Source: Saccharopolyspora aridisoli (GTDB lineage: Bacteria > Actinomycetota > Actinomycetes > Mycobacteriales > Pseudonocardiaceae). From it: 64,000 nt of DNA. The translations under genes were made by a program, and so were the position numbers. Below the pieces are notes generated by a model, which was not told the origin of the DNA, did not search any database, and was given only the letters and a program-made list of their open reading frames with translations. Position 1 is the first letter of the stretch, and every line of letters starts with the position of its first letter. Positions 42,991-63,821 of the stretch are shown here, in pieces. The stretch is taken from the NCBI RefSeq assembly GCF_004348445.1, contig NZ_SMKV01000010.1:1-64000 (forward strand), given 5' to 3'.

Positions 42991-43136
42991 CGCCCGGATG
43001 CCCGCCCGACTTCGGTTTCGACCCGGCCGCACTCAGGCGTTCGATCACGCTGTGCGAGCGACTGCGGGTTTTCCGCGCCCGGTGCGGGTAACCGCGAGAA
43101 GGGTGGCTGTCCGCTGCCGATATCCGGGAGTGCAGG

Positions 43137-44407: not shown

Positions 44408-44409
44408 GC

Positions 44410-45300: not shown

Positions 45301-46687
45301 TGCTCCCGGTGACGTGAGGCCGACGACGTCCGCCGGTGATCCGCTGCCCCGGTCGCGTCCACCGCGGTCCCCGTCCGGGTCGCGCAGTCGCCCTGCCGGG
45401 CAGCGGTGGTTGCGCGGGCTGCGGTGGTGTGGGGTGCACCCCCGCCAGCCGCGCCCAGCGCTCCTCGGCGGGCATGGCGCGGCGCTGCGGAGAACGTGCG
45501 AACAGCAACCAGGCCACGGCGGTGGCCACCACGGTGGCCGCGCCGGCGATCTCCAACGCCGGGCCGGGGCCAGCGAACTCCGACAGCCAACCCAGCAGCG
45601 GGCCGCCGACGGCGCCGGACGCTGCGGTCACGATCCCCTTGGCCGCCAGGACTCGACCGCGCATGTCCTCGTCGGTGTCGAGCTGGATGCGGGTGCTCGT
45701 CGCGGTGTCGAGCACCACCGCACCGATCGCGATCGGCACCAGCAGCGTCGCGAAGCTCCACAGGGTGGGCGTGACGCCGCTGAAGAACTGCAGGACGCTG
45801 GTGCCCAGCGCGCTCCACAGCACCAAGCGCAGCGTCAAGTTCTTGCAGGCCGCGGCGACGAAACCGCCGAGGACCGTGCCTGCGGAGAAGATCACCGACA
45901 GCACTCCGTAGCCCGCGGGCCCGGCCGCGAGCGGGCCTTCGCTCATCGCCGCCATCGTGACCTGGTAGTTGCGGCCCAGGCAGGAGAGCACGAAACCGAG
46001 CAGGAACATCAGCACCAGCGGCCGGTGGCCGAGCACGTACCGGATGCCCGCCTTGATGCCGGTCCGCTCCGCCGTGCTCGTGGCGAGGTGGAACATCCCC
46101 TCCCGCCGGACCTTGCCGAGCGCCAGCAGCACCGCGCCGAAGCTCACCGCGTTGATCACGAAGAGGAGGGGGACGCCGGTGACGGCCACCAAGCCGCCGG
46201 CCAACCCCATGCCGAGGATGCGGCCTCCCGAGCTCAGGATGGAGCCCAACCCCAACGCGTTGCTCAAGTCCTCGCGAGGTACCAGCTGCGAGCCGAAGCG
46301 GCCGAGGGCGGGGCCGTCGAAGACCGTCACCACCCCGCCGGCGAGAGCCAGCACGTAGACGGCGGACAGCGGGCCGTCGAGCCACGCCACTCCCGCCAGC
46401 ACCAGCGCGAGCACGCCGTGCAGTGATTGGGTGACCAGCAGCACGCGCTTGGTCGGCCACCGGTCGGCGACCGAACCTGCCACCGAGCCCAGCAGCACGC
46501 CGGGCAGCAGTTGGAACAGCAGGGAGAGTCCGAGAAGTCCGGGCGAACCGGTCTTGACGAGGACGAACCAGTTCAACGCGAGGTTCTGCATCCACGCACC
46601 GGTGACGGAGACGAGATCGGCGACCGCCCAGCGGCGGTAGTTGGGATGTCGGAGCGCGCGGAACATCGGAGCCACGGCTGCGCGCAC
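45131..46687 (-). CDS. MFS transporter with long basic C-terminal tail
   Basis: The 518-residue protein has about twelve membrane segments over residues 10-395, starting PMFRALRHPNYRRWAVADLV, the signature of the MFS_3 (enterobactin-exporter-like) group, with GSVAGSVADRWPTKRVLL as the loop 2-3 motif. The tail of about 120 residues is Pro/Arg/Ala-rich and low complexity, and overlaps the convergent GT2 gene by 170 bases. Either the true stop was lost by a frameshift near 45480 or the overlap is genuine. The GTG at 46687 has AAAGGA 7 bases upstream. Adjacent to glycosyltransferases, it may export the locus product. Confidence 0.85.
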   Translation of the reverse strand: MRAAVAPMFRALRHPNYRRWAVADLVSVTGAWMQNLALNWFVLVKTGSPGLLGLSLLFQLLPGVLLGSVAGSVADRWPTKRVLLVTQSLHGVLALVLAGVAWLDGPLSAVYVLALAGGVVTVFDGPALGRFGSQLVPREDLSNALGLGSILSSGGRILGMGLAGGLVAVTGVPLLFVINAVSFGAVLLALGKVRREGMFHLATSTAERTGIKAGIRYVLGHRPLVLMFLLGFVLSCLGRNYQVTMAAMSEGPLAAGPAGYGVLSVIFSAGTVLGGFVAAACKNLTLRLVLWSALGTSVLQFFSGVTPTLWSFATLLVPIAIGAVVLDTATSTRIQLDTDEDMRGRVLAAKGIVTAASGAVGGPLLGWLSEFAGPGPALEIAGAATVVATAVAWLLFARSPQRRAMPAEERWARLAGVHPTPPQPAQPPLPGRATARPGRGPRWTRPGQRITGGRRRPHVTGSISPRSGARRNGAAAPPAGADRVRPRRAPRGVPATPTATAAAPPARRRPCTGLSARN

Positions 46688-46980
46688 GCGGGATTCCTTT
46701 CCGAAAGGCGAATGGTCGGTCTCCGGCTCAGTTCGGCTCGGAAACCGACACGAATGTGCCAGCCAATTCGCCGAGATCGACACGTTTTGTGCCCGGACTC
46801 TCAGCAATCAGCGCGAAATTCGAAACAGTTCCCACGGAAAGGGGGATGACTGGGCACGAAGAGTCAATGACTGGCGGATTCGACCTTCACCGAGAGTGAA
46901 CCGCCCCACGCTGGGTTTGACCACTCCCGCCGCTGACAACCCAAGAGGAGCGAGCGAAGTCCGCGACGAGGAGGATCCCC

Positions 46981-47211
46981 ATGGCCGGCGAACCTGAAAG
47001 CCCGGTGAAGGACAAGAACTACAACCTCATCACCGTGTTGCAGTTGTCCTTGCACCACGCGTGGATGCTGGACCAGTACGTCAAGGATGCCGAGTCTCAA
47101 GGCGACGACGAACTCGCCAAGTGGCTGCACCGGATCCAGGACAACAACCTGAAGGCCGGTGAACAGGGAAAGCAGATGCTGTTGAAGCGACTGCAGTACG
47201 AGAACGGTTGA
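46981..47211 (+). CDS. Small conserved hypothetical protein
   Basis: The 76-residue helical, charged protein (NLITVLQLSLHHAWMLDQYV, KWLHRIQDNNLKAGEQGKQM) has GAGGAGG before its ATG. It looks like a well-constrained soluble helical protein, with a His-rich helix in the middle. I do not know a function. It is followed after 14 bases by another small gene, and a terminator closes the pair. The 293 bases upstream, shared with the divergent MFS gene, hold only promoters. Confidence 0.72.
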   Translation: MAGEPESPVKDKNYNLITVLQLSLHHAWMLDQYVKDAESQGDDELAKWLHRIQDNNLKAGEQGKQMLLKRLQYENG

Positions 47212-47225
47212 GAGGGATCAGCACC

Positions 47226-47411
47226 ATGCTTGGTGAGCGGATCCGGCAGTTGACCGGGCGGGTGCGCAACGGGATCGCGCAGCACGCGCCCGCGAAGTCG
47301 AAGGACGAGAGGTCTGCCGACCGGCGGAAGCATCGATCCGGCAGGGCGAACTCGCTGCTCGAGACGGGCCCGCGGGTTCCGCCGGAGTCGGGACCCCACA
47401 AGAAGCGCTGA
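47226..47411 (+). CDS. Small basic hypothetical protein
   Basis: The 61-residue protein is basic and probably disordered after a short helix (LGERIRQLTGRVRNGIAQHA). AGAGGG lies about 9 bases before the ATG at 47226. It is co-transcribed with the preceding helical small protein and ends 8 bases before a terminator. No family is recognised. Confidence 0.5.
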   Translation: MLGERIRQLTGRVRNGIAQHAPAKSKDERSADRRKHRSGRANSLLETGPRVPPESGPHKKR

Positions 47412-47419
47412 TGGCTGGT

Positions 47420-47449
47420 GGTGGTGCCCCGGAGGACCGGGGCACCACC
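47420..47449. terminator. Terminator after two small genes
   Basis: A perfect 13-bp inverted repeat (GGTGGTGCCCCGG and complement) with the 4-base loop AGGA. Confidence 0.85.
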
Positions 47450-47465
47450 TCTCGATGGGGGCTTG

Positions 47466-48362
47466 ATGCGAGCGCTGGTGACGGGGTGGGCGAGCTTCCT
47501 GCACGGGGAAGCCACCGCTGGGGATGTCGCGAGCCTGCACCGGGTGGCCACCCGGCTGACCGCCGACGGCATCGAGCACGAGATCGTGTTGAGCCCCGAG
47601 TTCGCGCCCGGTGCAACGCACTTCGACGACGTCGACCCGGACGACTACACCCACGTCATCTTCTGCTGCGGACCTGTGCACGGCTGGCAGGTCGAAGAGC
47701 TGCACAGCCGGTACTCGAGGTGCACGCGGATCGCCGTGGGAGTCTCGGTGATCGACCCGGGATCACCGGCCACCAAGGGTTTTCACACGCTGCTACCGAG
47801 AGACGGCCCAGGCCTGCGCGCATCAACGGACCTCGCCGCCGGTCTGGACCCCAGCGGCGTGCCGGTGGTGGGTGCCGTGCTCGCGCCGGCACAGCCGGAG
47901 TACGGAGACCGCGCCAGGCACGACGAGACGCACGAGGTCCTGCAGCGCTGGTTGGCCGGAGTGGACGCTGCGCGAATCCCGCTGGACACCCGGCTGGCTC
48001 GCGGTGACTGGCGGTTGTGCTCCTCCCCCGAGGCGTTCGCCGCTCTCGTCCGGCGCACCGATGTCCTGGTCACCACTCGTCTGCACGGGCTCGTCGTCGC
48101 GCTGTCCGCGGGCGTCCCCGCGCTGGCCGTTGATCCCGTCTCCGGCGGGGGCAAGGTCACCGCGCAGGCGCACGCGCAGGACTGGCCCGCGGTGATCGGC
48201 GCCGACGAGCTCACGGATGCCGAGCTGGATCGCTGGTGGCGGTGGTGCAGGTCCGACGAGGGTGCCTGCCGAGCCGCCGCGACCGGTCGCTCGGCAGGCA
48301 CCGACTCGGGTCCGCTGGACGCGCTGGCACGCCACCTGCACGCCGCCGCGCTCGATCGGTGA
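47466..48362 (+). CDS. Polysaccharide pyruvyl transferase family protein
   Basis: The 298-residue protein has the GT-B-like fold region of the pyruvyltransferase family: LVTGWASFLHGEATAGDVAS at the N-terminus and the conserved C-terminal block TDVLVTTRLHGLVVALSAGV followed by PALAVDPVSGGGKV. Family members add pyruvate ketals from phosphoenolpyruvate to sugars in exopolysaccharides and cell-wall polymers. The ATG at 47466 starts at the homology. Its start lies 16 bases after a terminator hairpin, so transcription may depend on readthrough or a promoter within the hairpin region. Confidence 0.78.
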   Translation: MRALVTGWASFLHGEATAGDVASLHRVATRLTADGIEHEIVLSPEFAPGATHFDDVDPDDYTHVIFCCGPVHGWQVEELHSRYSRCTRIAVGVSVIDPGSPATKGFHTLLPRDGPGLRASTDLAAGLDPSGVPVVGAVLAPAQPEYGDRARHDETHEVLQRWLAGVDAARIPLDTRLARGDWRLCSSPEAFAALVRRTDVLVTTRLHGLVVALSAGVPALAVDPVSGGGKVTAQAHAQDWPAVIGADELTDAELDRWWRWCRSDEGACRAAATGRSAGTDSGPLDALARHLHAAALDR

Positions 48363-48388
48363 CGTCCCGGCGCAGGAAGACCGGGACG
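48363..48388. terminator. Hairpin between convergent genes
   Basis: An 8-bp perfect inverted repeat (CGTCCCGG with CCGGGACG, 10-base loop) fills the short convergent gap and may end both transcripts. Confidence 0.5.
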
Positions 48389-48390
48389 CG

Positions 48391-48780
48391 TCAGGCCAGT
48401 TCCGGGTGACCGAAGAACGTGGCGTACCCGCTGGGCAGCTGGCTGAGCACGTGGTTGAGCTCGCCGCCGTCGATGCTCTCGGTCACCGTGGTGAGCACGG
48501 CGCTGACATCCCACCGCGCCGTCTCCGCGCTCGCGCCCTCCAAGCGGGCGGCGACCGCCTCTGCGAACCCGTCAGGTGACAGGTCCGGCATCGGCTGCTC
48601 CTCCGAGCGCAGAGCCTCGGCCAGATCGCCGGGCAGCTGCGCGGCGAGGTCCTCTGCCTCCTGGGCGGTGATGCGGGCGCCGAGCACACCCAGCACACAG
48701 CGCGTGACGTGCTCCGCGCGCTCATTCGACTCGTACTCACCGAGCCGACGGACGGTCGCGATGAACTCGTCGTACTTCAT
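48391..48780 (-). CDS. DUF2267 domain-containing protein
   Basis: The 129-residue protein starts KYDEFIATVRRLGEYESNER and shows the two-repeat DUF2267 layout (VTRCVLGVLGARITAQEAED, then DGFAEAVAARLEGAS and SQLPSGYATFF near the end). GGAGGTG lies just upstream of the ATG at 48780. It is the second DUF2267 gene in the window. Function unknown. Divergent from the ATP-grasp gene. Confidence 0.85.
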   Translation of the reverse strand: MKYDEFIATVRRLGEYESNERAEHVTRCVLGVLGARITAQEAEDLAAQLPGDLAEALRSEEQPMPDLSPDGFAEAVAARLEGASAETARWDVSAVLTTVTESIDGGELNHVLSQLPSGYATFFGHPELA

Positions 48781-48890
48781 GACGCACCTCCGGGACGCGG
48801 TCGTGCGTGGCCGCCTCCAGGGTTCCACCGGCGGCCGGGGTGAAAACAGCTGGATTAGCGACAGGCGATCCGGGTATGCGACGTGGTGTG

Positions 48891-50165
48891 ATGGAGAAGC
48901 CGAAGAACGTGTTCCTGCTGGGACCCGATGAGCGCAACCTCGCCCTGATGCACGAGCTCGAGCACCTCGCGCCGTACCGGTTCCACGCGCTGCTGGACAA
49001 GGAGCAGCTGATGTTCGGCGACATCGGCTTGGAGGAACTGCTCGAGAAGGCGCAGCAGCGCCTCGACGACTTCCCGGAACCGATCGACGCGATCGTGGGC
49101 TACTGGGACTTCCCGGTGAGCTCGATGGTTCCGATCCTGGCCACCGACAACGGCCTGCCGGGGCCGAGCCTGGAATCGGTGGTCAAGTGCGAGCACAAGT
49201 ACTGGAGCCGCCTGGTCCAGCGCGAGGTCACCGACGCGCACCCCGGGTTCGCCATCATCGACCTCGACGAACCGCGAACACCGTCAGGGATGCGCTTCCC
49301 GATGTGGCTCAAACCGGTCAAGTCCTTCTCCTCCGACCTGGCGTTCAAGGCCAACGACGAAGAGGAACTACGCGCAGCGACAGCCGAGATCCGGGAAGGC
49401 ATCGGCCGCATCGGACGTGCCTTCGACTTCCTGCTGTCCAAGCTGGAACTGCCGCCGGCCATCGAGGAAGCCGGAGGCATGGCATGCCTGGCCGAAGAAG
49501 CCGTGCACGGTGAGCAGATCACCACCGAGGGCTACGTCCACGACGGCCACGCGCAAATCCACGGCATCATCGACTCGCTGTGCTACCCGGACTCCTCCAG
49601 CTTCCTGTGCTACCAGTACCCCTCGCGAATCCCCGAGCACGTGCAACAACGAGCCTGCAGCATCACCCGAGACGTCATCGAGCACATCGGGCTCAACGAC
49701 TCGACCTTCAACATCGAGTTCTTCTGGGAACCCGACACCGACGCGCTCAACATCCTCGAGATCAACCCGCGACTGTCCCAATCCCACGCCCCCCTGTTCG
49801 AACTCGTCGACGGCATGCCCAACCACCAAGCGATGGTGCAACTCGCAGTCGGGGAAGAACCGAACATGCCCCACCGCCAAGGTCAACACCACATCGCCGC
49901 CAAGTGGTTCCACCGCACCTTCGAAGACGCCACCGTCACCTCCACACCGTCCGAGAGCGACCTCGCACGACTGACCGAGGAGCTCCCCGACGCCACCGTG
50001 GACATCATCGCCCAACAAGGTTCCCGGCTCTCCGAACTACCAGCCCAGGACAGCTACAGCTACGAACTCTTCGCCGCCTACCTCGGCGCAGCCAACGAGG
50101 AGGAACTGCGGGCCAAGTTCGACCGCTGCGTACAACTGCTGCCGTTCGGCCTCGACCGGACCTGA
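48891..50165 (+). CDS. ATP-grasp enzyme, ligase of unknown substrate
   Basis: The 424-residue protein resembles carbamoyl-phosphate-synthase/biotin-carboxylase-type ATP-grasp ligases. A PreATP-like N-terminal domain (NVFLLGPDERNLALMHELEH) is followed by the ATP-grasp part, with FPMWLKPVKSFSSDLAFKAN near 140-160, EAVHGEQITTEGYVHDG near 205, and the metal-binding LNILEINPRLSQSHAPLFEL near 285. Such enzymes join a carboxylate to an amine or thiol through an acyl phosphate. Start choice between ATG 48876 and ATG 48891 is uncertain. Beside glycan genes it could add an amino-acid amide to a sugar, but that is inference. Confidence 0.82.
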   Translation: MEKPKNVFLLGPDERNLALMHELEHLAPYRFHALLDKEQLMFGDIGLEELLEKAQQRLDDFPEPIDAIVGYWDFPVSSMVPILATDNGLPGPSLESVVKCEHKYWSRLVQREVTDAHPGFAIIDLDEPRTPSGMRFPMWLKPVKSFSSDLAFKANDEEELRAATAEIREGIGRIGRAFDFLLSKLELPPAIEEAGGMACLAEEAVHGEQITTEGYVHDGHAQIHGIIDSLCYPDSSSFLCYQYPSRIPEHVQQRACSITRDVIEHIGLNDSTFNIEFFWEPDTDALNILEINPRLSQSHAPLFELVDGMPNHQAMVQLAVGEEPNMPHRQGQHHIAAKWFHRTFEDATVTSTPSESDLARLTEELPDATVDIIAQQGSRLSELPAQDSYSYELFAAYLGAANEEELRAKFDRCVQLLPFGLDRT

Positions 50166-50172
50166 GCATCGC

Positions 50173-50196
50173 CCGCGACGGTCAGCAACGTCGCGG
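50173..50196. terminator. Hairpin after the ATP-grasp gene
   Basis: An 8-bp perfect inverted repeat (CCGCGACG with CGTCGCGG, 8-base loop) starts 8 bases past the stop codon. Confidence 0.6.
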
Positions 50197-50516
50197 CGTC
50201 ATCACCGGGTCTTGTGCACCGCCGCGCCGCCGCACCGCCGCGGGGACGCTCCCACAGGCCGTTGTGCACGATCAGCCAGCCGACCAGCCCGCCACGGCGA
50301 AGAGTGAATCAGTGCCAGGCGCACTGGGCGAGGCTATCGGCCAGGCTTGAGGAAGAGCACGCCGGTGGCGGCGGCCGCTCCCGCAGCCGCCGCCACCGCG
50401 GGACAGCCCCGGCAACCGCAGGAGGTCCGTCAAGCAGACCAGCAGGTCACGGTGCTCGCTGCGGCTGTCCTCCTCGGCCTTCTCGGCGATGTCGATCGTG
50501 CCGTTCTCGCCCAGCG
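50197..50516. other. Intergenic between convergent genes
   Basis: About 320 bases. A minus-strand frame reading ALGENGTIDIAEKAEEDS has GC-rich third positions but no start codon of its own, because it lies just after the GT9 stop in another frame. It may be a remnant of a gene that followed GT9. No family recognised. Confidence 0.35.
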
Positions 50517-51437
50517 CTATGGCACCGCTGTTCGCGCAGCTTCGATCACCTGCTCCGTCGTGAGGGCCAGCAGCCCGGGGTCCGGCTCGGAGGCGAAGGT
50601 GTCGCCGCTGCGCCCGTGCCACAGCGCGACGTGCCGGGCGTCGTCAGGCGGGCCCCAGCAGCGAGGTGCGACCGGCCCGAACAGCACCACCGACGGCGTC
50701 CGGAAGGCGCTGGCCAGGTGCGCGATGCCGGTGTCACCGCAGATCAGCAGACGTGCGTGGGCGACCAGCGCGGCCAGCTCGCGCAACCCGGTCCGTCCCG
50801 CCAGCACGGAGTCGGCTGGAAGTCCCGCGAGCTCGGCCACCCGCTCGGCGCGTTCGCGCTCGGATTCGGAACCGGTGAGGACCACGTCGGAGCCGCCGTC
50901 CACGGCCCAACGCACGACCTCGGCGTAGCGTTCCACCGGCCACATCCGAGCGCCGTGGCTGGCGCCAGGGTGGACGATCGCCACGCCGGGTCGGGCAACG
51001 TCCAGTGGCGTCGGCAGCAGCAGGTCGTCCGGGTCGGCGTCGATGTCGTAGTGCCGGAGCAGCCGGCACCAGCGCTGCCGCTCGTGCTGCTCGTCCTCCC
51101 AGCCCGGACCGGCGACGGGAGGGGCGGCCGGGTGCCGGTGCGAGAGGACACGGCGCGCTCCGGTCGAGCACACCGCGCGCACCGATTCCGGCCCGCTGCC
51201 GTGCAGGTTCACCGCGACGTCCGGACCCGATCGCTGCCAGCGGAAATCCGCGAGCCCTGCGGTGGGCACCAACTCGTCCACCTCGGGCACCAGGTCCAGC
51301 AGCGCTGCCAGCGGTTCGGGAGCGGCCAGCAGCACCTGGTGGTCCGGGAACGCATGCCGCAGACCGCGCAGCGCGGGCACGGCGGTGAGCAGGTCTCCCA
51401 ACCCCAGCGCGCGCAGCACCAGAACGCTCCCGATCAC
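50517..51437 (-). CDS. Glycosyltransferase family 9 (ADP-heptosyltransferase-like)
   Basis: The 306-residue GT-B protein is the second GT9 of the locus. It starts IGSVLVLRALGLGDLLTAVP, matching the heptosyltransferase N-terminal loop. VAIVHPGASHGARMWPVERY lies near 155-175 and RLLICGDTGIAHLASAFRTP near 240-260 (GDTGxxH donor site). It overlaps gmhA by 4 bases (GTGA) and ends the operon that begins at 56410. It should use ADP-heptose made by the two operons. Confidence 0.9.
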   Translation of the reverse strand: MIGSVLVLRALGLGDLLTAVPALRGLRHAFPDHQVLLAAPEPLAALLDLVPEVDELVPTAGLADFRWQRSGPDVAVNLHGSGPESVRAVCSTGARRVLSHRHPAAPPVAGPGWEDEQHERQRWCRLLRHYDIDADPDDLLLPTPLDVARPGVAIVHPGASHGARMWPVERYAEVVRWAVDGGSDVVLTGSESERERAERVAELAGLPADSVLAGRTGLRELAALVAHARLLICGDTGIAHLASAFRTPSVVLFGPVAPRCWGPPDDARHVALWHGRSGDTFASEPDPGLLALTTEQVIEAARTAVP

Positions 51438-52009
51438 CGGCTTTCCGGCACCCCGTCGACGGTCAACGCGTCGAACTCGCCGCACAGCGCGTGGATCAGC
51501 GCCAGGTGGATCTCCTGCACCGTCGCCACACCCGGCGCCTCCACGGCCACCACGTCATCGCAGACCGCGGCGAGGTCGTTGGGAGCAGGTCCGGTCAACG
51601 CCCAGGTCAGCACGCCCAGCTCCCGTGCGGTCTTGGCCGCGGCGAGCACGTTCTGACTGCGGCCGCTGGTGGACAGAGCGACCAGCACATCACCGGGACG
51701 CCCGTGCGCGCGCACGGCACGAGCGAAGACCTCCTGCTCGCCGTAGTCGTTGAGCGTGGCGGTGAACGCCGAGGTGTCGGCGTGCAGCGCGATCGCCGAG
51801 TACGGCCTGCGATCACGGAGGAACCGCCCGGTCAGCTCACCCGACAGGTGCTGCGCTTCCGCGGCACTGCCGCCGTTCCCACAGGTCAGCAAGCGCGCTC
51901 CGGAGGTGAGCCGGTCCGCGAGCGTGCCCGCCCAGCTCCGCAGCTTCGGCGCGGTGGAGCTGATGTGCCACGCGGCTGCGCCCAGGTCCTGGAAGTGCTG
52001 CTCGATCAC
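51434..52009 (-). CDS. gmhA: Phosphoheptose isomerase (SIS domain)
   Basis: The 191-residue protein is the usual GmhA length and has its motifs: RLLTCGNGGSAAEAQHLSGE (about residues 37-56), TGRFLRDRRPYSAIALHADT, FTATLNDYGEQEVFARAVRA, the SIS loop VLVALSTSGRSQNVLAAAKT, and VQEIHLALIHALCGEFD with metal-ligand His. GmhA converts sedoheptulose 7-phosphate to D-glycero-D-manno-heptose 7-phosphate, the first step to ADP-heptose. The GTG at 52009 overlaps the preceding GT4 stop by 4 bases. Confidence 0.94.
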   Translation of the reverse strand: MIEQHFQDLGAAAWHISSTAPKLRSWAGTLADRLTSGARLLTCGNGGSAAEAQHLSGELTGRFLRDRRPYSAIALHADTSAFTATLNDYGEQEVFARAVRAHGRPGDVLVALSTSGRSQNVLAAAKTARELGVLTWALTGPAPNDLAAVCDDVVAVEAPGVATVQEIHLALIHALCGEFDALTVDGVPESR

Positions 52010-53238
52010 GGTGCTCCCCCTCCCGGCGCGGCGGCGACCGCGGCCCGCTTGGGCCGCGCCGAACGCACCTGCTGGTAGATGTCCTCGGCTTCGCCGACGA
52101 GCCGATCCCACCCGTAGCGGTCCCGGACGCGGTGCGCACCCGCCGCTCCGAGTTCCGCGCGCAGGGCCGGTCGATCCAGCAGCTCCCGCACGGCACGGGC
52201 GGTCGCCGCCGCATCGTGCGGTGTGACGTGCAGTCCCGTCCTGCGGTCGACGACGGTGTCGAGGTGACCTCCGACAGCACTGACGACGACCGGAACGCCG
52301 CAGGCCATCGCCTCCGGTGGCACCGTGCCGAACGGCTCGTACCACGGCACGCTGGCGACGACGTCGACCGACCGGTAGAGGTCGGGCGCGTCGTCGTGGG
52401 GCACTGGCCCGAGGAACTCGGTGCGGTCGGCGACACCCGATTGTCGGGCCACCGCCTGCAACCGGTTGACCTCCGGATCATCAGGCCACTCCGACTCCGG
52501 CGGTCCACCTGCGATGAGCAGCCGGGCGTCTGGGAGGTCGCGCATGGCCCTGATCATCACGTCCACCCCCTTGCGCTCGACCAACCTGCCGATGCTCAGG
52601 ATTCGCGGAGCACCGCGCTTCGGCTCGCGCGGCGCGGCCGGGAAGAACCGGTCGACGTCGATGCCGCAGGGCAGCACGGCGGTGCGCTCCGGCGCCACTC
52701 CCATCTCGGCGAGCTCCCCGACCTCGTCCGTGCAGGTGGCGATGACGAGATCAGCTGCGCGGGCGATCTGCGCCTCCAGCTCGACGCGTTGCGGTGGACT
52801 GGTGTCCTTGGCCCCCTGCTCGCGGCGCTTGACGCGGCCCAGCGCGTGGAAGGTCTGCAGCACCGGTACGCCGAGCCCCGCGGCTCCGCGCTGCGCGGCG
52901 AGCCCGCTCATCCAGAAGTGCGCGTGCACCAGGTCCGGCGGCCTGCTCACCCAGGTCTCGGCGAGCCGCGCGGCGAAGGCGTCCATGTGGGGCAGCAGTT
53001 CGTCCTTGGGCACGACTTCGGGCGGCCCGGCCGCCACGTGGCGCACCGTGAAGCCCTCCTCGGTGCGCACCCGCTCCGGGATCGTCGTGGAATCGCGGCG
53101 AGTGTGCACGACGACGTCGTGGCCGCGACGGGCGAGCCCGGTCGCCAGTTCGGCCACCTGCACGTTCTGCCCCCCGGCGTCGGCTCCCCCGAGAGCCGCC
53201 AGCGGGCTGGCGTGCTCGGAGACCATGTCGATCCTCAT
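52006..53238 (-). CDS. Glycosyltransferase family 4
   Basis: The 410-residue GT-B enzyme begins RIDMVSEHASPLAALGGADA, with the GGQNV motif typical of GT4. It has LVHAHFWMSGLAAQRG near 105, ILSIGRLVERKGVDVMIRAM near 230, and the E-x7-E donor motif in SVPWYEPFGTVPPEAMACGV near 315. The sequence resembles sucrose-phosphate-synthase-like and MshA-like retaining enzymes. GGAGGTG precedes the ATG at 53238. Both ends overlap neighbours by 4 bases. It acts on an unknown acceptor within the heptose pathway. Confidence 0.92.
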   Translation of the reverse strand: MRIDMVSEHASPLAALGGADAGGQNVQVAELATGLARRGHDVVVHTRRDSTTIPERVRTEEGFTVRHVAAGPPEVVPKDELLPHMDAFAARLAETWVSRPPDLVHAHFWMSGLAAQRGAAGLGVPVLQTFHALGRVKRREQGAKDTSPPQRVELEAQIARAADLVIATCTDEVGELAEMGVAPERTAVLPCGIDVDRFFPAAPREPKRGAPRILSIGRLVERKGVDVMIRAMRDLPDARLLIAGGPPESEWPDDPEVNRLQAVARQSGVADRTEFLGPVPHDDAPDLYRSVDVVASVPWYEPFGTVPPEAMACGVPVVVSAVGGHLDTVVDRRTGLHVTPHDAAATARAVRELLDRPALRAELGAAGAHRVRDRYGWDRLVGEAEDIYQQVRSARPKRAAVAAAPGGGAP

Positions 53239-54776
53239 CGCGGCACCTCCTGCCGAACGGGACGCCGCGTCGCCGCACGCACCCGGCCGTCCCGCAACAC
53301 GCGGGACACGGCCGCCTCGAGGGTCGGTGCGACCTCGGCTTCGGCGAGCGCCCTGGCCGTCTCCTCCGTCCTGGTCCGCTCGGTGGGCACCAGGATCGCC
53401 CTGGCTCCCGCGGCCAGCGCTGCAGCGACGTCCGCTCCGGTGTCGCCGATGACCACGCAGGTCCGCGGCAGCACGCGCAACCGGGCGGCGGCTCGTTCGA
53501 TCAGCCCGGGTTCCGGTTTGCGGCAACCGCATCCGTCGTTCTCGTCGTGCGGGCACCACTGCCAGGTGTCGAACGGTCCCAACACCCGCTGCACCGCGCC
53601 GTTGACGGCGGCGACGTCCTCGTCGCGCAGCAGTCCGCGCGCCACTCCGGACTGGTTGCTCACCACACCGATCGGAATGCCGGCCACGCGGAGCCGGTCC
53701 AGCGCTTCCCGTGCCCCGCTGACCGGATGCACGCGGGCGGGGTCGCCGTTGTAGGGAACGTCGTGGACGAGCGTGTCGTCCCGGTCGAACAGCACCGCAG
53801 CAGGCCTTTCCGCTGTGCCCGTGCGCACTTCCCACTCGCCGCGCAGTCGGTGCAGGCACGCTGCGGGCGGGATCAGGACGCTCGTGACCAGCATTCGGGC
53901 CACCTCGGAGGGGGCACCCGATCCCGGAGCGATCCGGCGGGCCGCGAACTCGGCGGTCAAGCCCAGCCACACCGCCGCACCTGAGGCCGCCGCTCGGCGC
54001 GCGCCGAGCCCCGAGGCCACGAGCGCGGCCCCTCCTGCCACCGTGATCGCCAGGTGGCGCCGAATCCTGCCCGGGCCTTCACCGATCCGCCTGCGCCAAC
54101 GCTTCCCGTACTTGCGGCGCATGATGGCGTTGTCGGCGTTGCCCCGTTGCGCGCGCACGCTGGCGAAGAAGCCCGACGGACGCGCGGGATGACTGGTCAC
54201 GCGCGCGCCGTTGACGAGTCGCCACCCTGCCGCCTGCACCCGCAGCGCCAGGTCGGCGTCCTCCCGGAAAGCGCGGCGGAACCCCTCGTCGAAGCCCCCG
54301 CAGGCCGACAACACCTCGCGCCGGTAGGCCATGTCGGCGGTGATCCACAGCGCGTCGGTGAGCGCGGCCGTGTCGCGTTCGGCATCGGTCGGCTTCCGCT
54401 CGCTCGGGAGCGGGACGACGATGTCCCCTTGGCACGCCCCGACGTCCGGACCGACGTCGAGGTCGTCCTCGACCTGCTCTCGCCACTCCGCGGAGGGCAC
54501 GACGTCGTCGTCCAGGAACACCACCCAACCGGCGCCCACTTCGCGCCAACCGATGTTGCGCGCTGCGGCAGGACCGCGTCCGCCGGAACGCACGACGCGG
54601 ATCGGCAGCTCGCTGCGCGGCAACGGCAGCGGCTCGCGCGGGTCGGGTCGGTCGTCGACCACCACGACCTCGCGCGGACCGGGACCGTGACCGGTGTCGA
54701 GGGCGGCCAGGGTTCCGGCGAGGCTGTTGCGGCCCGTGGTCGGGATGACCACCGCGTAGTCGCCGTGGGCGGTCAT
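53235..54776 (-). CDS. gmhB: GT2 glycosyltransferase fused to GmhB-type heptose bisphosphate phosphatase
   Basis: The 513-residue protein combines two enzymes. Residues 1-240 are a GT2 domain (YAVVIPTTGRNSLAGTLAAL; VVVFLDDDVVPSAEW-type metal site; FREDADLALRVQAAGW). Residues 245-310 are hydrophobic or amphipathic and may lie on the membrane. Residues 325-470 are a HAD phosphatase with motif I as LFDRDDTLVHD, SNQSGVARG, the GmhB zinc-binding loop CPHDENDGCGCRKPEPGL, and VVIGDTGADVAAAL. GmhB removes the 7-phosphate of heptose 1,7-bisphosphate. Overlaps of 4 bases occur on both sides. The symbol refers only to the phosphatase half. Confidence 0.9.
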   Translation of the reverse strand: MTAHGDYAVVIPTTGRNSLAGTLAALDTGHGPGPREVVVVDDRPDPREPLPLPRSELPIRVVRSGGRGPAAARNIGWREVGAGWVVFLDDDVVPSAEWREQVEDDLDVGPDVGACQGDIVVPLPSERKPTDAERDTAALTDALWITADMAYRREVLSACGGFDEGFRRAFREDADLALRVQAAGWRLVNGARVTSHPARPSGFFASVRAQRGNADNAIMRRKYGKRWRRRIGEGPGRIRRHLAITVAGGAALVASGLGARRAAASGAAVWLGLTAEFAARRIAPGSGAPSEVARMLVTSVLIPPAACLHRLRGEWEVRTGTAERPAAVLFDRDDTLVHDVPYNGDPARVHPVSGAREALDRLRVAGIPIGVVSNQSGVARGLLRDEDVAAVNGAVQRVLGPFDTWQWCPHDENDGCGCRKPEPGLIERAAARLRVLPRTCVVIGDTGADVAAALAAGARAILVPTERTRTEETARALAEAEVAPTLEAAVSRVLRDGRVRAATRRPVRQEVPR

Positions 54777-56410
54777 GACCGCTCACCCCCGCGGCGGACC
54801 ACGAACGGCCCGATCACGAGCAGGTCGATCGGCGACGCTCCGAAGCACTCCAGGGCGTCGACCGGGCTGTCGACCATGGGGCGCCCAGCGGTGTTGAAGC
54901 TGGTGTTGATCAGCGCTGGGACACCGGTGCGCGCCGCGAAGGAGTCCAGCAACCTGGCCACCAGGGGTTCGGCGGCCCGGTCGACGGTCTGCGGGCGCGC
55001 GGTGCCGTCGATGTGCACGGCGGCCGGTATGCGGTCCTGCCACTCCGGCGTCACGTCGTGCACGAACAGCATGTGCGGGCTGCTCTCCGGGCCCCGGGTG
55101 AACAGCTCCGCGGAACGTTCGGCCAGCACCATCGGTGCGACCGGGCGGAACTGCTCGCGGCCCTTGATGTCGTTGAGGCGTTCGACGTTGTCGGCGTTGC
55201 CGGGATGGGCGAGCAGGGATCGGTGTCCCAGCGCGCGCGGGCCGAACTCGCTGCGCCCCTGGAACCAGCCGACCGACTCGTCGCGCGCCAGCGCTTCGGC
55301 GGCGACCTCCGCGACGTCGCTCGGTCGTTCGTAGGCCAGTTTCGCGGTGCGGAGGGCGTTCTCGATCTCCTCATCGCTCCATCCGCGCCCGAGGTCGGCG
55401 CCGGGCATCGGCCTGATGGGCTCGTCGTGCTGCGCCGCGATCTGCAACGCGGCGCCGAGCGCGGTGCCCGCGTCACCGGCCGCGGGTTGCACCCACACCT
55501 CGTCGAACGGCCCTTCGCGAGCGATCCGGGTGTTGGCCACGCAGTTCAACGCGACTCCGCCGGCCATCGCCAGTCGACGCTCCCCGGTCTCCCCGTGCAG
55601 CCACCGCGCGAGGTCGAGCAGCACTTCCTCCAACCTGGCCTGCACGCTCGCGGCGAGCTGGGCGTGCTTGTCCCCCAGCTGTTCCTGAGCGGTGCGACGG
55701 GGAGCCCAGCGCTGCCAGTCGATCTGCTCGATCTCGTAGCGCCCGTCGCCGGTGCTGCGGACCAATTCCCTGAACTCCGGCAGGAAGGCGGGCTCGGCGT
55801 AAGAAGCCAGGGCCATCACCTTGTACTCGTCGCTGGAGCGCCGAAAACCCAGGTGGTCGGTCAGTTCCTCGTACATCAGCCCGAGCGAGTGCGGCAGTCG
55901 CTGCTCGACCAACGTGGTCAGCCGGCCGCCGGTGCAACGTCCGGCAAGCCCCGCGGTGCTCTCGCCGCGGCCATCGGCGGTGAGCACGGCGCAGTCACCG
56001 AACGGTGCGGCGAGCGCAGCGGAAGCGGCGTGCGCGACGTGGTGCGGCACGCACACCACCGCGTCGCGGTCGAGCCCTGGCAGCGCGGTGGCCAGGAAGT
56101 GCGGTGCCCGTTCGGCGAAGGTCGTGCGCAACCACTCCCACGCGGGATCCAGTCCACCCACCGCGTCGTCGACCAATGCCGGGTCGTAGGAGAAGGCCAC
56201 CGCGTCCAGTTCTGACGCCTCGATCCCGCCCTGGCGCAGGCACCACGCCGCAGCCTGCTCGGGTTGTTCCCACGCCGAGAACGGGACGGGCGTCTTGCCG
56301 TGCTTGCGACGGGAGAAGCGTTCCTCCTCTGCGGCAGCCACGATGCGGCCGTCGACCACGAGTGCGGCTGCCGAGTCGTGGAAGACCGAGTTGATGCCGA
56401 GGATTCGCAC
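54773..56410 (-). CDS. O-carbamoyltransferase (NodU/CmcH/TobZ family)
   Basis: The 545-residue protein has the two-domain layout of carbamoyltransferases: RILGINSVFHDSAAALVVDG at the N-terminus, VCVPHHVAHAASAALAAPFG near 115 (catalytic His region), and MAGGVALNCVANTRIAREGP. The C-terminal YrdC-linked domain contains GRSEFGPRALGHRSLLAHPG and INTSFNTAGRPMVDSPVDAL. It transfers carbamoyl from carbamoyl phosphate to a sugar or metabolite hydroxyl. The GTG at 56410 follows GGGAGGACGACC. In-frame ATG at 56440 is less likely. It heads the gmhA/gmhB operon, so the glycan is probably carbamoylated. Confidence 0.92.
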   Translation of the reverse strand: MRILGINSVFHDSAAALVVDGRIVAAAEEERFSRRKHGKTPVPFSAWEQPEQAAAWCLRQGGIEASELDAVAFSYDPALVDDAVGGLDPAWEWLRTTFAERAPHFLATALPGLDRDAVVCVPHHVAHAASAALAAPFGDCAVLTADGRGESTAGLAGRCTGGRLTTLVEQRLPHSLGLMYEELTDHLGFRRSSDEYKVMALASYAEPAFLPEFRELVRSTGDGRYEIEQIDWQRWAPRRTAQEQLGDKHAQLAASVQARLEEVLLDLARWLHGETGERRLAMAGGVALNCVANTRIAREGPFDEVWVQPAAGDAGTALGAALQIAAQHDEPIRPMPGADLGRGWSDEEIENALRTAKLAYERPSDVAEVAAEALARDESVGWFQGRSEFGPRALGHRSLLAHPGNADNVERLNDIKGREQFRPVAPMVLAERSAELFTRGPESSPHMLFVHDVTPEWQDRIPAAVHIDGTARPQTVDRAAEPLVARLLDSFAARTGVPALINTSFNTAGRPMVDSPVDALECFGASPIDLLVIGPFVVRRGGERS

Positions 56411-56462
56411 GGTCGTCCTCCCGTCGTAGGCGGTGTTCACCGAGCGCGTGCCCTAGGTCCGT

Positions 56463-56507
56463 CCTGCCTATACCGCTACCCTGTGCAGCGACTCGTAAAC
56501 ACATGTG
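56463..56507 (-). promoter_or_regulatory. Conserved 45-bp promoter-like element, copy 2
   Basis: Matches the element at 42946-42990 in 39 of 45 positions with no gap. Here it ends about 53 bases before the GTG of the carbamoyltransferase gene, which heads the second heptose operon. The six differences fall in the middle, while the GGTATAGG end and the CACATGTG palindrome are fully conserved. This pattern suggests two protein-contact regions at fixed spacing. No third copy was seen in the window. Confidence 0.65.
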
Positions 56508-56551
56508 GACGACGGCTTCCTCGACGGAGGGGAGGAGCTGCGCTCGCGTGA

Positions 56552-57505
56552 TCACGCGGCAGCGGGCCGAGCGGCGAACCAGTCGATCGTGCGGCGGAGT
56601 CCCATGACGACGTCGATCTGCGGTCGCCAGCCGAGGTGCTCCGTCGCGACGGTGATGTCCGGGCATCGGCGGCTCGGTTCGTCGGCGACGGCGGCGGTGT
56701 GGGTGATCGGTGATGACGTCCCGGTCAGCGACCGCACGAGCTCCGCGATCTCCAGCACGGTCATCTCCTCCGGCCTGCCGATGTTGACCGGTCCGGCGTG
56801 GTCACCGGCCGCCGCGGCCAGCAGCCCGCGCACCGTGTCGTCCACATAGCACAGTGAACGCGTTTGGCTCCCATCGCCGTTGACGGTGATCGGGTCTCCT
56901 GCCAGCGCTTGCGAGACGAAGGTGGAGACCAAACGCCCGTCGGTGGGCCGCATTCCCGGGCCGTAGCTGTTGAACAGCCGCACGATGCGGGTGTCGACCT
57001 GCCGGTGCGCGCGGTAGCAGGACGTCAGCGCCTCGGCGTAGCGCTTGGCTTCGTCGTAGACCGCGCGAGGGCCGACCGGGTTGACGTTGCCCCAGTAGTC
57101 CTCGCGCTGCGGGTGTTGCAGCGGGTCCCCGTAGACCTCGCTGGTGGAGGCGAGCAGGAACCGCGCACCGGCGCGCTCGGCCAAGCCCAGCGCGTGCGCG
57201 GTGCCGTTGCTGCCCGCCTGAAGGGTTTCCACCGGCATGCGCAGGTAGTCCACCGGCGATGCGGGAGAGGCCAGGTGCAGGACGAGGTCGACGTCCTCGG
57301 CGTGCCAGGGTTCGCGGGAGATGTCGTGTTCGACCAGTTCGAACCGGGGGTCCGACTGCAGTTCCCGAACGTTCTCGGCTCCGCTGCTGCTGAAGTTGTC
57401 CAGGCAGTGCACCACCGCGCCGCGGCGCAGGAGCTCCGCGCACACCGGCGCTCCCAGGAATCCTGCTCCACCGGTCACCACAGCACGTTCGAACGCCCAC
57501 GACAC
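56552..57505 (-). CDS. NAD-dependent epimerase/decarboxylase (UDP-xylose synthase-like)
   Basis: The 317-residue extended SDR has RAVVTGGAGFLGAPVCAELL (NAD loop), DLVLHLASPASPVDYLRMPV, the characteristic STSEVYGDPLQHPQREDYWG, YDEAKRYAEAL (YxxxK), and RLFNSYGPGMRPTDGRLVS. These are hallmarks of UDP-glucuronate decarboxylase (UXS). It would turn the UDP-glucuronate made by the dehydrogenase at 36732 into UDP-xylose. I prefer the GTG at 57505 over the one at 57514, because a GAGGGG site is about 10 bases upstream of the former and abuts the latter. It sits outside the 45-bp element. Confidence 0.88.
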   Translation of the reverse strand: MSWAFERAVVTGGAGFLGAPVCAELLRRGAVVHCLDNFSSSGAENVRELQSDPRFELVEHDISREPWHAEDVDLVLHLASPASPVDYLRMPVETLQAGSNGTAHALGLAERAGARFLLASTSEVYGDPLQHPQREDYWGNVNPVGPRAVYDEAKRYAEALTSCYRAHRQVDTRIVRLFNSYGPGMRPTDGRLVSTFVSQALAGDPITVNGDGSQTRSLCYVDDTVRGLLAAAAGDHAGPVNIGRPEEMTVLEIAELVRSLTGTSSPITHTAAVADEPSRRCPDITVATEHLGWRPQIDVVMGLRRTIDWFAARPAAA

Positions 57506-57799
57506 CGCGACCACTCCCCTCGTCCCTCCGGACGCTCACCGGAGTTCCCCCTTCTTCCCGGTCAGCAAACTCTCCGGCGGCGGTCGACGGGATGCCGTGG
57601 CGGCGCGAGGAGTGCGGCACGATTGCTTTCAGTCACCACTGACGCCACAGGCTATTCGAACAGTGCCCCGAACGAGGTGTTGACGCGCCTGGAGAGCCAG
57701 CCGCACCATTGCGTCATCAGCACCGAGGTGCGCAGTGAGCAACACGGATGTCCGCGTCTCCACCGCACCGCGCGGTGCGCTGATCGTCTGGAGGGTCCG

Positions 57800-60361: not shown

Positions 60362-62233
60362 GTGATCAGAAGAAGCAGAGCTGCCCCGGCCGAGTGGTTC
60401 TTGACGCACGCCGAGCGCGGCAACCCGTGGTCGAAGCTCGACGGCCTCGGCCCGGGGCACATCGCGTGGTCCGAGGGCAACCTCGCGCACCCCCTGATCG
60501 ACGGTGCGGAGTACTTCCCCCGGCTCGCCGCTGAACTGGCCGACGTCCACGCCGGTGACCAGGTCTACCTCTCGGCGTGGATCGTCGATCAGGACAAGCA
60601 CCTCGACGGACCGGGAACGTCGATGAGGGAGCAGTTCGCCCGCGTTCTGCGCGACGGAGCCTCGGTCCACGCGCTGCTGTGGTGGCCGTACCTGGACCTC
60701 GACCACGATCTCGTCTCCGCCAACCGCGATTTCGCTTCCTCGTTGCGGGAGGCGGGCGCGAACGTGGTGCTGGACCAGCGAGTTCGCCCAGCGGGCTGCC
60801 ACCACCAGAAGTTCCTGGTGATCCGGCGCCCGCGACGTCCCGAGACCGACATCGCGTTCCTCGGCGGGATCGACCCGTGCCCGAGCCGGCTGGACGCGCA
60901 CGAGCATCGTGGTGACAGCGACGTTCAGCTCTCCATCGACAACGACTGCTACGGCGAGCGACCGGCCTGGCACGACGCGCACCTGCAGGTGCGCGGTCCC
61001 GCGGTGGCCGACGTCGAGCACTGCTTCCGCGAACGCTGGCAGGACGCTGCGATCCGCCTGCGCGGACCGCTCTCCCGACTCCGACGCCGTTTCGGTCCCG
61101 GCGAACCCGAGGCGGGCGAACTTCCCGAACAGCTGCCCGCACCGCCTCCCAGTGGCCCGCACTCGGTGCAGCTGCTGCGAACCTACCCGAGGAAGCACCC
61201 TCCGTACCTGTTCGCCAGGAGCGGAGAACGCAGCGTTGCGAGGGGCTACGCCAAAGCCCTCCAGCGCGCCCGTCGACTCGTCTACGTCGAAGACCAGTTC
61301 CTCTGGTCACCCATGGTGGCTGATGCCTTCGCCGCGGCACTGCGCCGCGAACCCGAGCTGCGCTTGATCGCCGTGGTACCCGCTCAGCCCGAGAAGGGCG
61401 GCGCCGTGGAAGTCGCCACCTGCGATGCCGCGCAGGACAAGGCGCTGAGCCTGCTGTACGCCGCCGGTGGCGATCGCGTCGACGTCTTCGAGCTGGAGAA
61501 TGACAGAGAACTCCCGACATACCTGCACTCGAAGGTGTGCGTCATGGACGACAGCTGGGCAGCCGTGGGCTCGGCGAACCTCAACCGCCGTTCCTGGACC
61601 TACGACTCCGAACTGACCGCAGCGGTGCTCGACGAGAGGCAACCGACGACCGGCTTCGCGCGCGAACTGCGCCTCCGGCTGTGGCGAGAGCACCTGGGAC
61701 GGGAGGCCGGGGACAACTCAGGACTGACCGACCCCGAGAACGGCGTCGAGGTGATGCGCAGCGCCGCCGCAGAACTCGACGCGTGGCACGAATCGGGGCG
61801 GAGGACACCTCGGCCTCGGGGGCAGTTGCGCAGACACCCCCGGCGCGCGAAGTCCACGGCAACGCGGTTGTGGGCGATCCCCCTGGGCCGACTGATGATG
61901 GACCCCGATGGCCGTCCGATGCGGGCCCGGCTGGCCGATTGGTCTCGCGACCGGTTCGGAGCGAGTCGAGCCCCAACGTCCGCCCGCGAAACCTCCAATC
62001 ATGAGCCCCGGGCGGAAGCGGAGGGTGAACCGCCGTCACCGCAAAAGGTCTCGCTCGATCGACGTGCCACGCGGCGGGCCGCGGCGGACGGCGAGCTCTC
62101 CGCTGAATCCGATTGCCCGCGCACGGCGGCGGGTATTGCGCAAGGAAGCTGCCGTGAATCGCAGCCACTCGTACCCACCAGCGGAGGTGACGATGCACCG
62201 GGAGCGGCCACGCACGCCAGCGAAGGGCGATGA
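60362..62233 (+). CDS. Phospholipase D family protein with extended C-terminus
   Basis: The 623-residue cytosolic protein carries two HKD motifs: CHHQKFLVIRRP with a following Asp (near residue 146), and LHSKVCVMDDSWAAVGSANL (near 388). This is the complete catalytic pair of phospholipase D enzymes, which hydrolyse or transfer phosphodiesters. The PLD domain ends near residue 530. The last 90 residues are basic and Ser/Arg-rich without similarity, and the end overlaps the Pup-like gene by 41 bases in another frame. The GTG at 60362 follows GGAAGGAAC. Confidence 0.88.
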   Translation: MIRRSRAAPAEWFLTHAERGNPWSKLDGLGPGHIAWSEGNLAHPLIDGAEYFPRLAAELADVHAGDQVYLSAWIVDQDKHLDGPGTSMREQFARVLRDGASVHALLWWPYLDLDHDLVSANRDFASSLREAGANVVLDQRVRPAGCHHQKFLVIRRPRRPETDIAFLGGIDPCPSRLDAHEHRGDSDVQLSIDNDCYGERPAWHDAHLQVRGPAVADVEHCFRERWQDAAIRLRGPLSRLRRRFGPGEPEAGELPEQLPAPPPSGPHSVQLLRTYPRKHPPYLFARSGERSVARGYAKALQRARRLVYVEDQFLWSPMVADAFAAALRREPELRLIAVVPAQPEKGGAVEVATCDAAQDKALSLLYAAGGDRVDVFELENDRELPTYLHSKVCVMDDSWAAVGSANLNRRSWTYDSELTAAVLDERQPTTGFARELRLRLWREHLGREAGDNSGLTDPENGVEVMRSAAAELDAWHESGRRTPRPRGQLRRHPRRAKSTATRLWAIPLGRLMMDPDGRPMRARLADWSRDRFGASRAPTSARETSNHEPRAEAEGEPPSPQKVSLDRRATRRAAADGELSAESDCPRTAAGIAQGSCRESQPLVPTSGGDDAPGAATHASEGR

Positions 62234-62384
62234 AGAAGCCGAGAGGGGACCGGCCACGTCCGGGCAGCAGCGGCGTGAGCGGCTCGACGAGACGACCGAC
62301 GATCTCCTGGACGACATCGACGACGTCTTGGAGGAGGATCCTCAGACGTTCGTGCGCGGCTACGTGCAGAAGAACGGCCAATGA
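62193..62384 (+). CDS. pup: Prokaryotic ubiquitin-like protein Pup (orphan copy)
   Basis: The 63-residue protein matches Pup, which is usually 60-70 residues. It has a disordered charged N-terminus (HRERPRTPAKGDEEAERG), GQQRRERLDETTDDLLDDID with the coiled-coil that binds the proteasomal ATPase, then DVLEEDPQTFVRGY and the C-terminal VQKNGQ. The last residue is Gln, as in Pups that Dop deamidates before PafA links the resulting Glu to lysines. The usual GGQ is NGQ here. A GGAGGTGA site lies just before the ATG. No mpa, dop, pafA or prcBA gene lies in the window. Confidence 0.85.
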   Translation: MHRERPRTPAKGDEEAERGPATSGQQRRERLDETTDDLLDDIDDVLEEDPQTFVRGYVQKNGQ

Positions 62385-62568
62385 CCGCACCGGTCGTGAC
62401 CCCGTCTCGCCCGCTGGAGGTCTCCGGCCGCACGGCGGCGACTGGACCGCGGTGCTCCGGCGAGACCGGCCGCCATCGAAGAGCGAGTTCGGGGAGGTGA
62501 CCGACGTCCTCCTCGCGCGCCGCGGAGGGTCTCGTTTCGCCCGCGCACGTGCCGGTTACCCGTCAGGC

Positions 62569-62808
62569 ATGTCATCACAGCCCTCCGAGCCCGATCCGGA
62601 GCCACGCCGCACTCCCGGGCTGCAACCTGGCGGGTCCGTTCCGCCCGGGGAAACGCCGCCGGAGTCGGCCCAAGCGACCAGCGGCCTGTCCCACGAGCAA
62701 CGGGCCGGTGCGCACGCGACGAAGTGGGCGTGGCTGACCGTGCTGGCCGTCCTGGTGCTCCTGGTGGCGGGCTTGTTCACCTACCTCGCCATCGCCCTGC
62801 TCATGTGA
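62569..62808 (+). CDS. DUF6480 family small membrane protein
   Basis: The 79-residue protein has an N-terminal Pro/Glu-rich segment with RRTPGLQPGGSVPPGETPPE and a C-terminal membrane helix (WLTVLAVLVLLVAGLFTYLA). This matches the actinobacterial DUF6480 family. The start ATG has no strong ribosome-binding site but begins the family's usual sequence. Function unknown. Confidence 0.75.
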   Translation: MSSQPSEPDPEPRRTPGLQPGGSVPPGETPPESAQATSGLSHEQRAGAHATKWAWLTVLAVLVLLVAGLFTYLAIALLM

Positions 62809-62931: not shown

Positions 62932-63170
62932 CCCGGCTTGGGAACCCCGCCAAGCGGAACCGGCTCCCACCGGATCAACGTGCAGCCATCGCTTGAGAAG
63001 GAAGTCGTGGCAGGAACCCGAGGCACGACGGATCGGGGGCTTCCTCCACCACCCGTTCTCGCGCTCGCCTGCGGATCGACCGCACGTGGCTGTTCGTGTG
63101 CCACTGGCGCGGTCGGGTACTCGGACGGGACCGACCGCGCCGGAGGGGTCGCGGACGAACGGGAGGGGCC

Positions 63171-63821
63171 ATGTCACCACGAGAAGCCCGAGCCGAGGCG
63201 TTCGTGCCCGCGAAAGGGGGCCTGCCCGCGATGGCGAGCGCGGTCCAGGCCTGCCGTGGGTGCGGCCTCCACGAGAACGCGACCCAAGCCGTGTTCGGCC
63301 AGGGATCGACCCGAGCCCGGGTCCTCCTCGTCGGTGAGCAGCCGGGTGCCTCCGAGGACGTGGAGGGCCACCCCTTCGTCGGCCCCGCAGGCCGCACGCT
63401 CGACGAGGCCTTCCGGGAAGCCGGCCTGCGCCGCGACGACGTGTACCTGACCAACGTGGTGAAGCACTTCAAGTTCGTGCCCGCGGAGAGGGGGAAGCGG
63501 CGAATCCACCAGAAGCCGAGCGTGGGCGAGGTGCGCGCGTGCACGCCCTGGCTGACCGCCGAGCTGCGTCTGGTCAAGCCCGAACTCGTCGTCTGCCTGG
63601 GCGCGACCGCGGCCAAAGCGCTGTTCGGCGAGTCCTTCCGCGTCACCCGCGACCGCGGGGTCCTGCTCGACTTCCCGGCGGGCTTCGAGCTCGGCGGGCG
63701 CAGCCCGGACTCCGTCCTCGCGACTGTGCACCCCTCGTCGGTCTTGCGATCCTCGGACCGGGAGGCCGCGTACCTCGACTTCCGGAACGACCTCCGCACC
63801 GCGGCTGACGCTCTCTGCTGA
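63171..63821 (+). CDS. udgX: UdgX family uracil-DNA binding protein
   Basis: The 216-residue protein belongs to the uracil-DNA glycosylase superfamily: a Cys pair CRGCGLHENA (Fe-S cluster ligands), VLLVGEQPGASEDVEGHPFV (GEQPG active-site loop, residue about 54), LTNVVKHFKFVP, and HPSSVLRSSDREA near the end. It contains KRRIHQKP around residue 110-117. This matches the R-loop of UdgX, whose His (113 here by my count) forms a covalent bond to abasic DNA after removing uracil. The ATG at 63171 has GGGAGGGG before it. Confidence 0.9.
   Translation: MSPREARAEAFVPAKGGLPAMASAVQACRGCGLHENATQAVFGQGSTRARVLLVGEQPGASEDVEGHPFVGPAGRTLDEAFREAGLRRDDVYLTNVVKHFKFVPAERGKRRIHQKPSVGEVRACTPWLTAELRLVKPELVVCLGATAAKALFGESFRVTRDRGVLLDFPAGFELGGRSPDSVLATVHPSSVLRSSDREAAYLDFRNDLRTAADALC

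Follow-up and report, generated by a model that had tools for sequence, protein, structure and literature searches.

An orphan pup gene behind a SigB-type promoter-like element, and a family of extra Pups in Saccharopolyspora

Why does Saccharopolyspora aridisoli carry a gene for the protein tag Pup at a place where neither dop nor prcB lies nearby? The question arises from a stretch of 64,000 nucleotides (hereafter the window; positions 1 to 64,000 of contig NZ_SMKV01000010.1, assembly GCF_004348445.1, genome G000), in which a first-pass annotation, made from the letters alone, placed a Pup-like gene at 62193..62384 (+). Its reading of the open reading frame, including the coordinates, the length of 63 residues, the C-terminus VQKNGQ, and an overlap of 41 bases (62193-62233) with a phospholipase D (PLD)-like gene, is reproduced here in full. 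The Pup homology that it proposed to check by HMM also holds, and profile searches score the protein above the cut-offs of both family models, PF05639 (E 1.1e-16; 61.9 bits, cut-off 27 bits) and TIGR03687 (E 1.8e-14; 53.5 bits, cut-off 41.45 bits). In addition, it aligns to solved Pup chains (E 1.9e-15) and ends in GQ, in keeping with the C-terminal G-[EQ] stated as the signature of the Pup family in the available part of PMC2588565. A Shine-Dalgarno-like GGAGGTGA, read from the sequence at 62183..62190 (+), precedes the start at 62193; a longer alternative ATG frame of 158 aa opens at 61908, with the Pup match confined to its last part. With homology far above chance, the gene is a genuine extra copy of Pup, and it probably encodes a working paralogue.

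The isolation of the gene, also described in the first pass, was borne out for dop and prcB by tblastn searches with Dop and PrcB of the same genome, which gave no match in the window or in bases 60001-80000 of contig 1. A canonical dop-pup-prcB locus, for which a search had been recommended, lies elsewhere in this genome (6.0 Mb, 83 contigs), namely on contig 2, where a Pup with a GGQ end is flanked by dop and prcB. Because this cluster exists, the window gene is not a displaced sole Pup, and that explanation is ruled out. The earlier description of a "second copy" is right in that the gene is an extra Pup and wrong in its count, as the genome holds three PF05639 matches. The third, on contig 40, has 62 residues, an NGQ end, and a WhiB-like gene upstream. 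Exactly two genes of the Dop/PafA family (PF03136) are present, both at the canonical locus. The window Pup resembles the canonical Pup of the dop-pup-prcB locus in its family models, its C-terminal core, and its terminal Gly-Gln, but it is an orphan beside neither dop nor prcB, ends in NGQ rather than GGQ or GGE, falls outside the canonical clade, and has a SigB-type element upstream. In the accessible text of PMC2588565, pup is called invariably adjacent to a PafA gene; extra-pup loci are exceptions to the adjacency stated there.

Such loci are widespread in the genus. Pup occurs in all 22 Saccharopolyspora genomes and with more than one match in 18 of them (51 matches in total, up to six in G014), and each of the 22 has exactly two PF03136 genes, which rules out a co-duplicated Dop or PafA. 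No relative of Dop or PrcB turned up around any of the other 28 extra pups of the genus (loci of 12 to 19 kb), and the same search detected such relatives in canonical loci used as controls. Two of the 29 extra copies are broken (L061 in G014 and L080 in G016), so the family is also being lost. Across the taxonomic family, 384 of 390 genomes have a Pup match, and outside the genus two matches were found in ten genomes. Among these, G339 has two canonical-looking Pups, and the second Pups of G027 and G237, from two other genera, are very divergent (L106, 40.4 bits; L107, 28 bits). Seven genomes from four other genera also have second Pups (L099-L105, in G372, G075, G379, G068, G070, G368, and G371); most of these lie outside the canonical clade, and the G379 one is the closest neighbour of that clade. 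In a class-wide sample of 394 genomes, 319 had a match, three in the window's genome and one in each of the other 318, by a single-sequence search at E 0.001 that may miss weak paralogues. A match in Segniliparus rugosus was considered as a further extra Pup and rejected, since its GGQ end and adjacent relatives of Dop and PrcB identify it as a canonical pup. Carriage as plasmid or phage cargo was also rejected, as the window Pup had no match at E 0.01 in a plasmid or phage collection.

The extra Pups are also separate in kinship. In a tree of 63 rows, which used 63 columns only (few for the tree tool) and omitted the broken L061 and L080 and the divergent L106 and L107, the 29 Pups of canonical type group together in one clade, to which none of the 27 intact extra Pups of the genus belongs. 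The three NGQ Pups, from the window, contig 40, and genome G004, form one clade (support 100/99), in which the terminal branch of the window row is long (0.47). The contig-40 gene (L005, up to base 6878) and the G004 gene (L078) both sit directly 3' of a WhiB-like gene, identified as WhiB by PF02467 in G004. The contig-40 locus has a confirmed SpoIIE/GAF protein, and an HATPase_c_2 protein was verified in G004; each locus also contains relatives of the two. For comparison of upstream regions we divided the intact extra pups of the genus into two groups, drawn after the upstreams had been read: a sister group of 13, which with one row of G372 makes up a 14-row fork of weak support (78/71), and the 14 that lie outside this fork, including the window copy (the window's group).

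At the C-terminus, all 27 intact extra Pups retain a terminal Gly-Gln or Gly-Glu, with GGE in 13, GGQ in 11, and NGQ in three. The replacement of GGQ by NGQ, pointed out in the first pass, stands for the window Pup and is limited to the three-gene clade, the other 24 ending in GGQ or GGE. For the final 38 codons, dN/dS is 0.087 between the contig-40 and G004 genes and 0.132 and 0.15 between these and the window gene, and whole-gene values among comparable extra-pup pairs range from 0.175 to 0.556, all from sampled pairs with few sites. By these ratios, the C-terminal part is under purifying selection in the pairs sampled, and the N-terminal part appears looser because the whole-gene values are higher than those of the last 38 codons.

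Could the altered residues make a different tag? Pup alone is disordered, and when Pup is bound to PafA the Pro of the window Pup would fall in the gap that separates the two helices. A functionally distinct tag would be ligated and then meet another fate, such as slower depupylation or degradation, owing to the Gly-to-Asn change at the start of the GG motif, to the Pro that follows helix 1, or to a changed N-terminus that Mpa threads. We think this unlikely, though it has several points in its favour: the whole three-member NGQ clade retains NGQ and [DN]PQ, the N-termini of the genus extra Pups are unlike the canonical MSQEK, MSQDK, and MAQDK, and a Glu end occurs in 13 of 27 extra Pups versus one of 22 canonical Pups of the genus, so that many would need no deamidation. 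These points are set against the GGQ or GGE kept in 24 of the 27 and against the residues of mycobacterial Pup that are reported to respond to Mpa (PMC3769308, in its available part), 12 of 17 of which are kept in the window Pup when aligned to solved Pup chains. The changes at these positions are K7P, E42D, A51P, D53T, and A57G, and G62N is found besides. Searches of the open-licence literature brought up no paper seen to examine what a change at the leading Gly of this motif does.

The surroundings of the gene bear on its age and on its supposed link to the PLD-like gene (60362..62233, +; PF13091 9.9e-12, PF00614 7.2e-7), whose frame covers the first 41 bases of pup. At the equivalent site in G004, DNA similarity ends at window position 61954 and restarts at 62514; the pup-carrying stretch between (61955..62513) has no DNA match there, and G004 has about 92 other bases instead. 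The PLD protein alignment with G004 extends to residue 559 (window 62038). Downstream, a small DUF6480 protein (62569..62808, +; PF20088 3.5e-25) is kept in G004 and has 89% identity in L088. A partnership of pup with PLD was ruled out, as the latter is present in only five of the 22 genus genomes, its own included, and the G004 site has PLD and DUF6480 without pup between them. Coupling of the two genes through their overlap, as first suggested, is not supported either: the pup gene has Shine-Dalgarno-like and promoter-like elements of its own, and the overlapped end of PLD lies in a stretch that has no counterpart at this site in G004. Because that end lies beyond both the DNA and the protein similarity to G004, the overlap looks incidental. 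An element of the form GTTT-N16-GGTTAC, seen by eye at 62534-62559 ahead of the DUF6480 gene and also in G004, is perhaps a stress promoter.

The window copy differs from its nearest relatives by a dS of 0.97 (contig 40) and 0.81 (G004). As both values exceed that between contig 40 and G004 (0.257), the window copy seems older than the split of the two species, which suggests that it predates the separation of G000 and G004. Its absence from the G004 site may mean that G004 has lost the gene or that G000 has gained it by transfer. DNA similarity of the window copy to the contig-40 and G004 copies is confined to the pup region. A DNA search with the pup stretch matched pup genes of the genus, along with two short segments that fall within pup itself; outside the pup part it gave a single 27-base match, in G010, with at most 27 candidates per genome scored. 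Further upstream, a carbamoyltransferase (54773..56440, -; PF16861, PF02543), also found near the extra pup of G021, and an epimerase are shared neighbours: within the window's group, relatives of the former lie near the extra pup in one other locus and of the latter in four, and relatives of both occur in the pup-less locus of G004. This sharing favours, without proving, an old position of the window pup.

These observations also weigh on whether the gene is a decaying duplicate without function. The stretch missing at the G004 site, the two broken copies among 29, and the long end branch of the window row are what decay would leave behind. We nevertheless consider decay improbable, given that the dS values point to age, that dN/dS stays at 0.13-0.15 over the last 38 codons, that the similarity to the contig-40 and G004 copies is limited to the pup region, and that Shine-Dalgarno-like and promoter-like elements are in place.

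The promoter-like element is of SigB type, GATT-N16-GGGTAT, at 62111..62136 (+), 82 bases upstream of the pup ATG. A pattern fixed beforehand, GNNT-N14-17-GGGTAY within 400 bp, was found before six of 29 extra pups, including the window's, and before none of the 20 canonical pups covered. The motif was then relaxed after the upstreams had been read, where GGGTA preceded other bases. In the form GNTT-N14-17-GGGTA within 200 bp, it occurs in 12 of 14 members of the window's group, none of 13 in the other group, none of 28 canonical upstreams (22 of the genus and six of other genera), and 0.9% of 4000 random windows, with 500 resamplings giving at most one in 14. Within the group it precedes 10 of 11 GGQ/GGE pups and two of three NGQ pups; the exact element is missing before the contig-40 copy and before L067 of G006. 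A looser GNNT form gives 12/14, 0/13, and 3/28 in the same three sets and 2.3% of random windows. The upstreams of the window's group are related to one another and fall into seven clusters at 65% identity, the element being present in some member of six and in all members of five. At starts of neighbouring genes, predicted with a simple custom caller, the element was seen at 11 of 114 in loci of the window's group versus one of 92 in those of the other group. In the window itself, the strict GTTT form was observed four times versus 0.14 expected, and a GTTT-N14-17-GGGTA element at 56477..56500 (-) precedes the carbamoyltransferase gene.

A sigma factor gene of the SigB/F/G type lies on contig 25 of the same genome (TIGR02980, 295.7 bits, cut-off 234.35 bits). 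Promoters of SigB homologues in Streptomyces coelicolor have such a form, GGGTAG included (PMC8346170, in its accessible part), and the predicted pup element shares with them a GNNT/GTTT-type -35 and a GGGTA-type -10. The SigB-type element fits the idea of a regulated variant, one of several readings offered by the first-pass annotation. The SpoIIE/GAF and HATPase relatives at the contig-40 locus also count in favour of stress control.

As the best reading of this evidence, and with moderate confidence, we propose that the extra Pup is a stress-induced second supply of tag served by one Dop/PafA pair. A SigB-type general-stress promoter of its own would drive the window pup, apart from the proteasome operon, and the gene would be translated from its own start when a SigB-type sigma factor is active. 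Dop would then deamidate the terminal Gln, and the single set of PafA, Mpa, and 20S would use the extra Pup like ordinary Pup, through ligation and degradation, such that tagging capacity would increase under stress. For the window Pup we infer stress induction, deamidation, ligation, and degradation alike; the Dop, PafA, Mpa, and 20S steps follow the pathway known from the available portions of PMC3511204 and PMC7947786. A protein that binds Dop, PafA, or Mpa and damps pupylation without serving as a tag could likewise combine a conserved binding half with an altered C-terminus. Such a decoy or regulator is very improbable, since it would not need the Dop-processable terminal Gly-Gln that all three NGQ genes keep, nor the terminal Gly-Gln or Gly-Glu found in 27 of 27.

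The sister group, to which the window copy does not belong, has a different upstream signal. Its 13 intact extra pups (L055, L057, L059, L062, L063, L064, L066, L069, L070, L072, L075, L076, and L079) carry a sequence like AGGGCCGATCGGCCCT 92-171 bases upstream. The palindrome was spotted by eye before counting, and the published OsdR consensus was met afterwards. With at most four of 16 mismatches within 200 bp, and with the G372 row left out of the count, the box is present in 11 of 13 of the sister group, one of 28 canonical upstreams, none of 14 in the window's group, and 2.8% of random windows; 500 resamplings give at most two in 13. Relatives of Usp, found with a model built from members within these very loci, occur in nine of the 13 loci versus none of 14 in the window's group, and the Pfam families of P-type cation ATPases (7/13) and nitroreductases (6/13) are both absent from the 14. 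The latter two families are linked to the DosR regulon. Six Usp proteins of Mycobacterium tuberculosis are in that regulon (PMC2914252, in part), and OsdR is described, in the available text of PMC5069765, as orthologous in function to DevR, which regulates dormancy, with the consensus AGGGCCGATCGGCCCT. Box and Usp neighbours are thus what the sister group has in common with the OsdR/DevR dormancy regulon (PMC5069765); the comparison is inapplicable to the window copy.

Overall, the extra Pup family seems to be placed in two stress regulons, and because its genes stand behind stress- and hypoxia-type control elements, the supply of the tag may itself be regulated. A bolder and more tentative possibility is that these are condition-specific forms of the tag, namely a proteasome Pup, a general-stress Pup of the SigB regulon (to which the NGQ form would belong), and an OsdR/DevR-regulon hypoxia Pup, which would differ in Gln/Glu readiness and fate and be read by one ligase and proteasome. 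If true, this would be a bacterial counterpart of several ubiquitin-like modifiers. Up to six Pup matches alongside one Dop/PafA pair make tag discrimination by a single pair directly testable.

Duplicated pup genes have been published before. Two pup genes in one organism, a PupQ and a PupE, are described in the accessible part of PMC3511204, as are duplicated system parts in S. erythraea; more than one pup per genome in the same genus is common to that account and ours, but its available text is without separate subfamilies, NGQ ends, or placement in stress regulons. The second pupylation system of Leptospirillum ferrooxidans likewise includes an additional Pup whose C-terminus is unusual, but that organism has a duplicate of the entire system in the customary gene context (PMC3511204, same portion), whereas in Saccharopolyspora it is pup only. 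In the open-licence literature we found no account of Pup paralogues in stress or hypoxia regulons, of the regulon split, or of an NGQ Pup or clade. Low amounts of Pup, of whichever copy, are reported late in fermentation for S. spinosa (PMC3936707, in part).

Finally, two further features of the window may be recorded. The region 41800-57514, with glycosyltransferases, a polysaccharide pyruvyl transferase, ATP-grasp, the carbamoyltransferase, and the epimerase, looks like a polysaccharide island, and multiple GTTT-N14-17-GGGTA sites occur within or close to it. On the other side of pup, 63096-63821 (+) encodes a UdgX-family uracil-DNA binding protein (TIGR03914, 3.1e-70).
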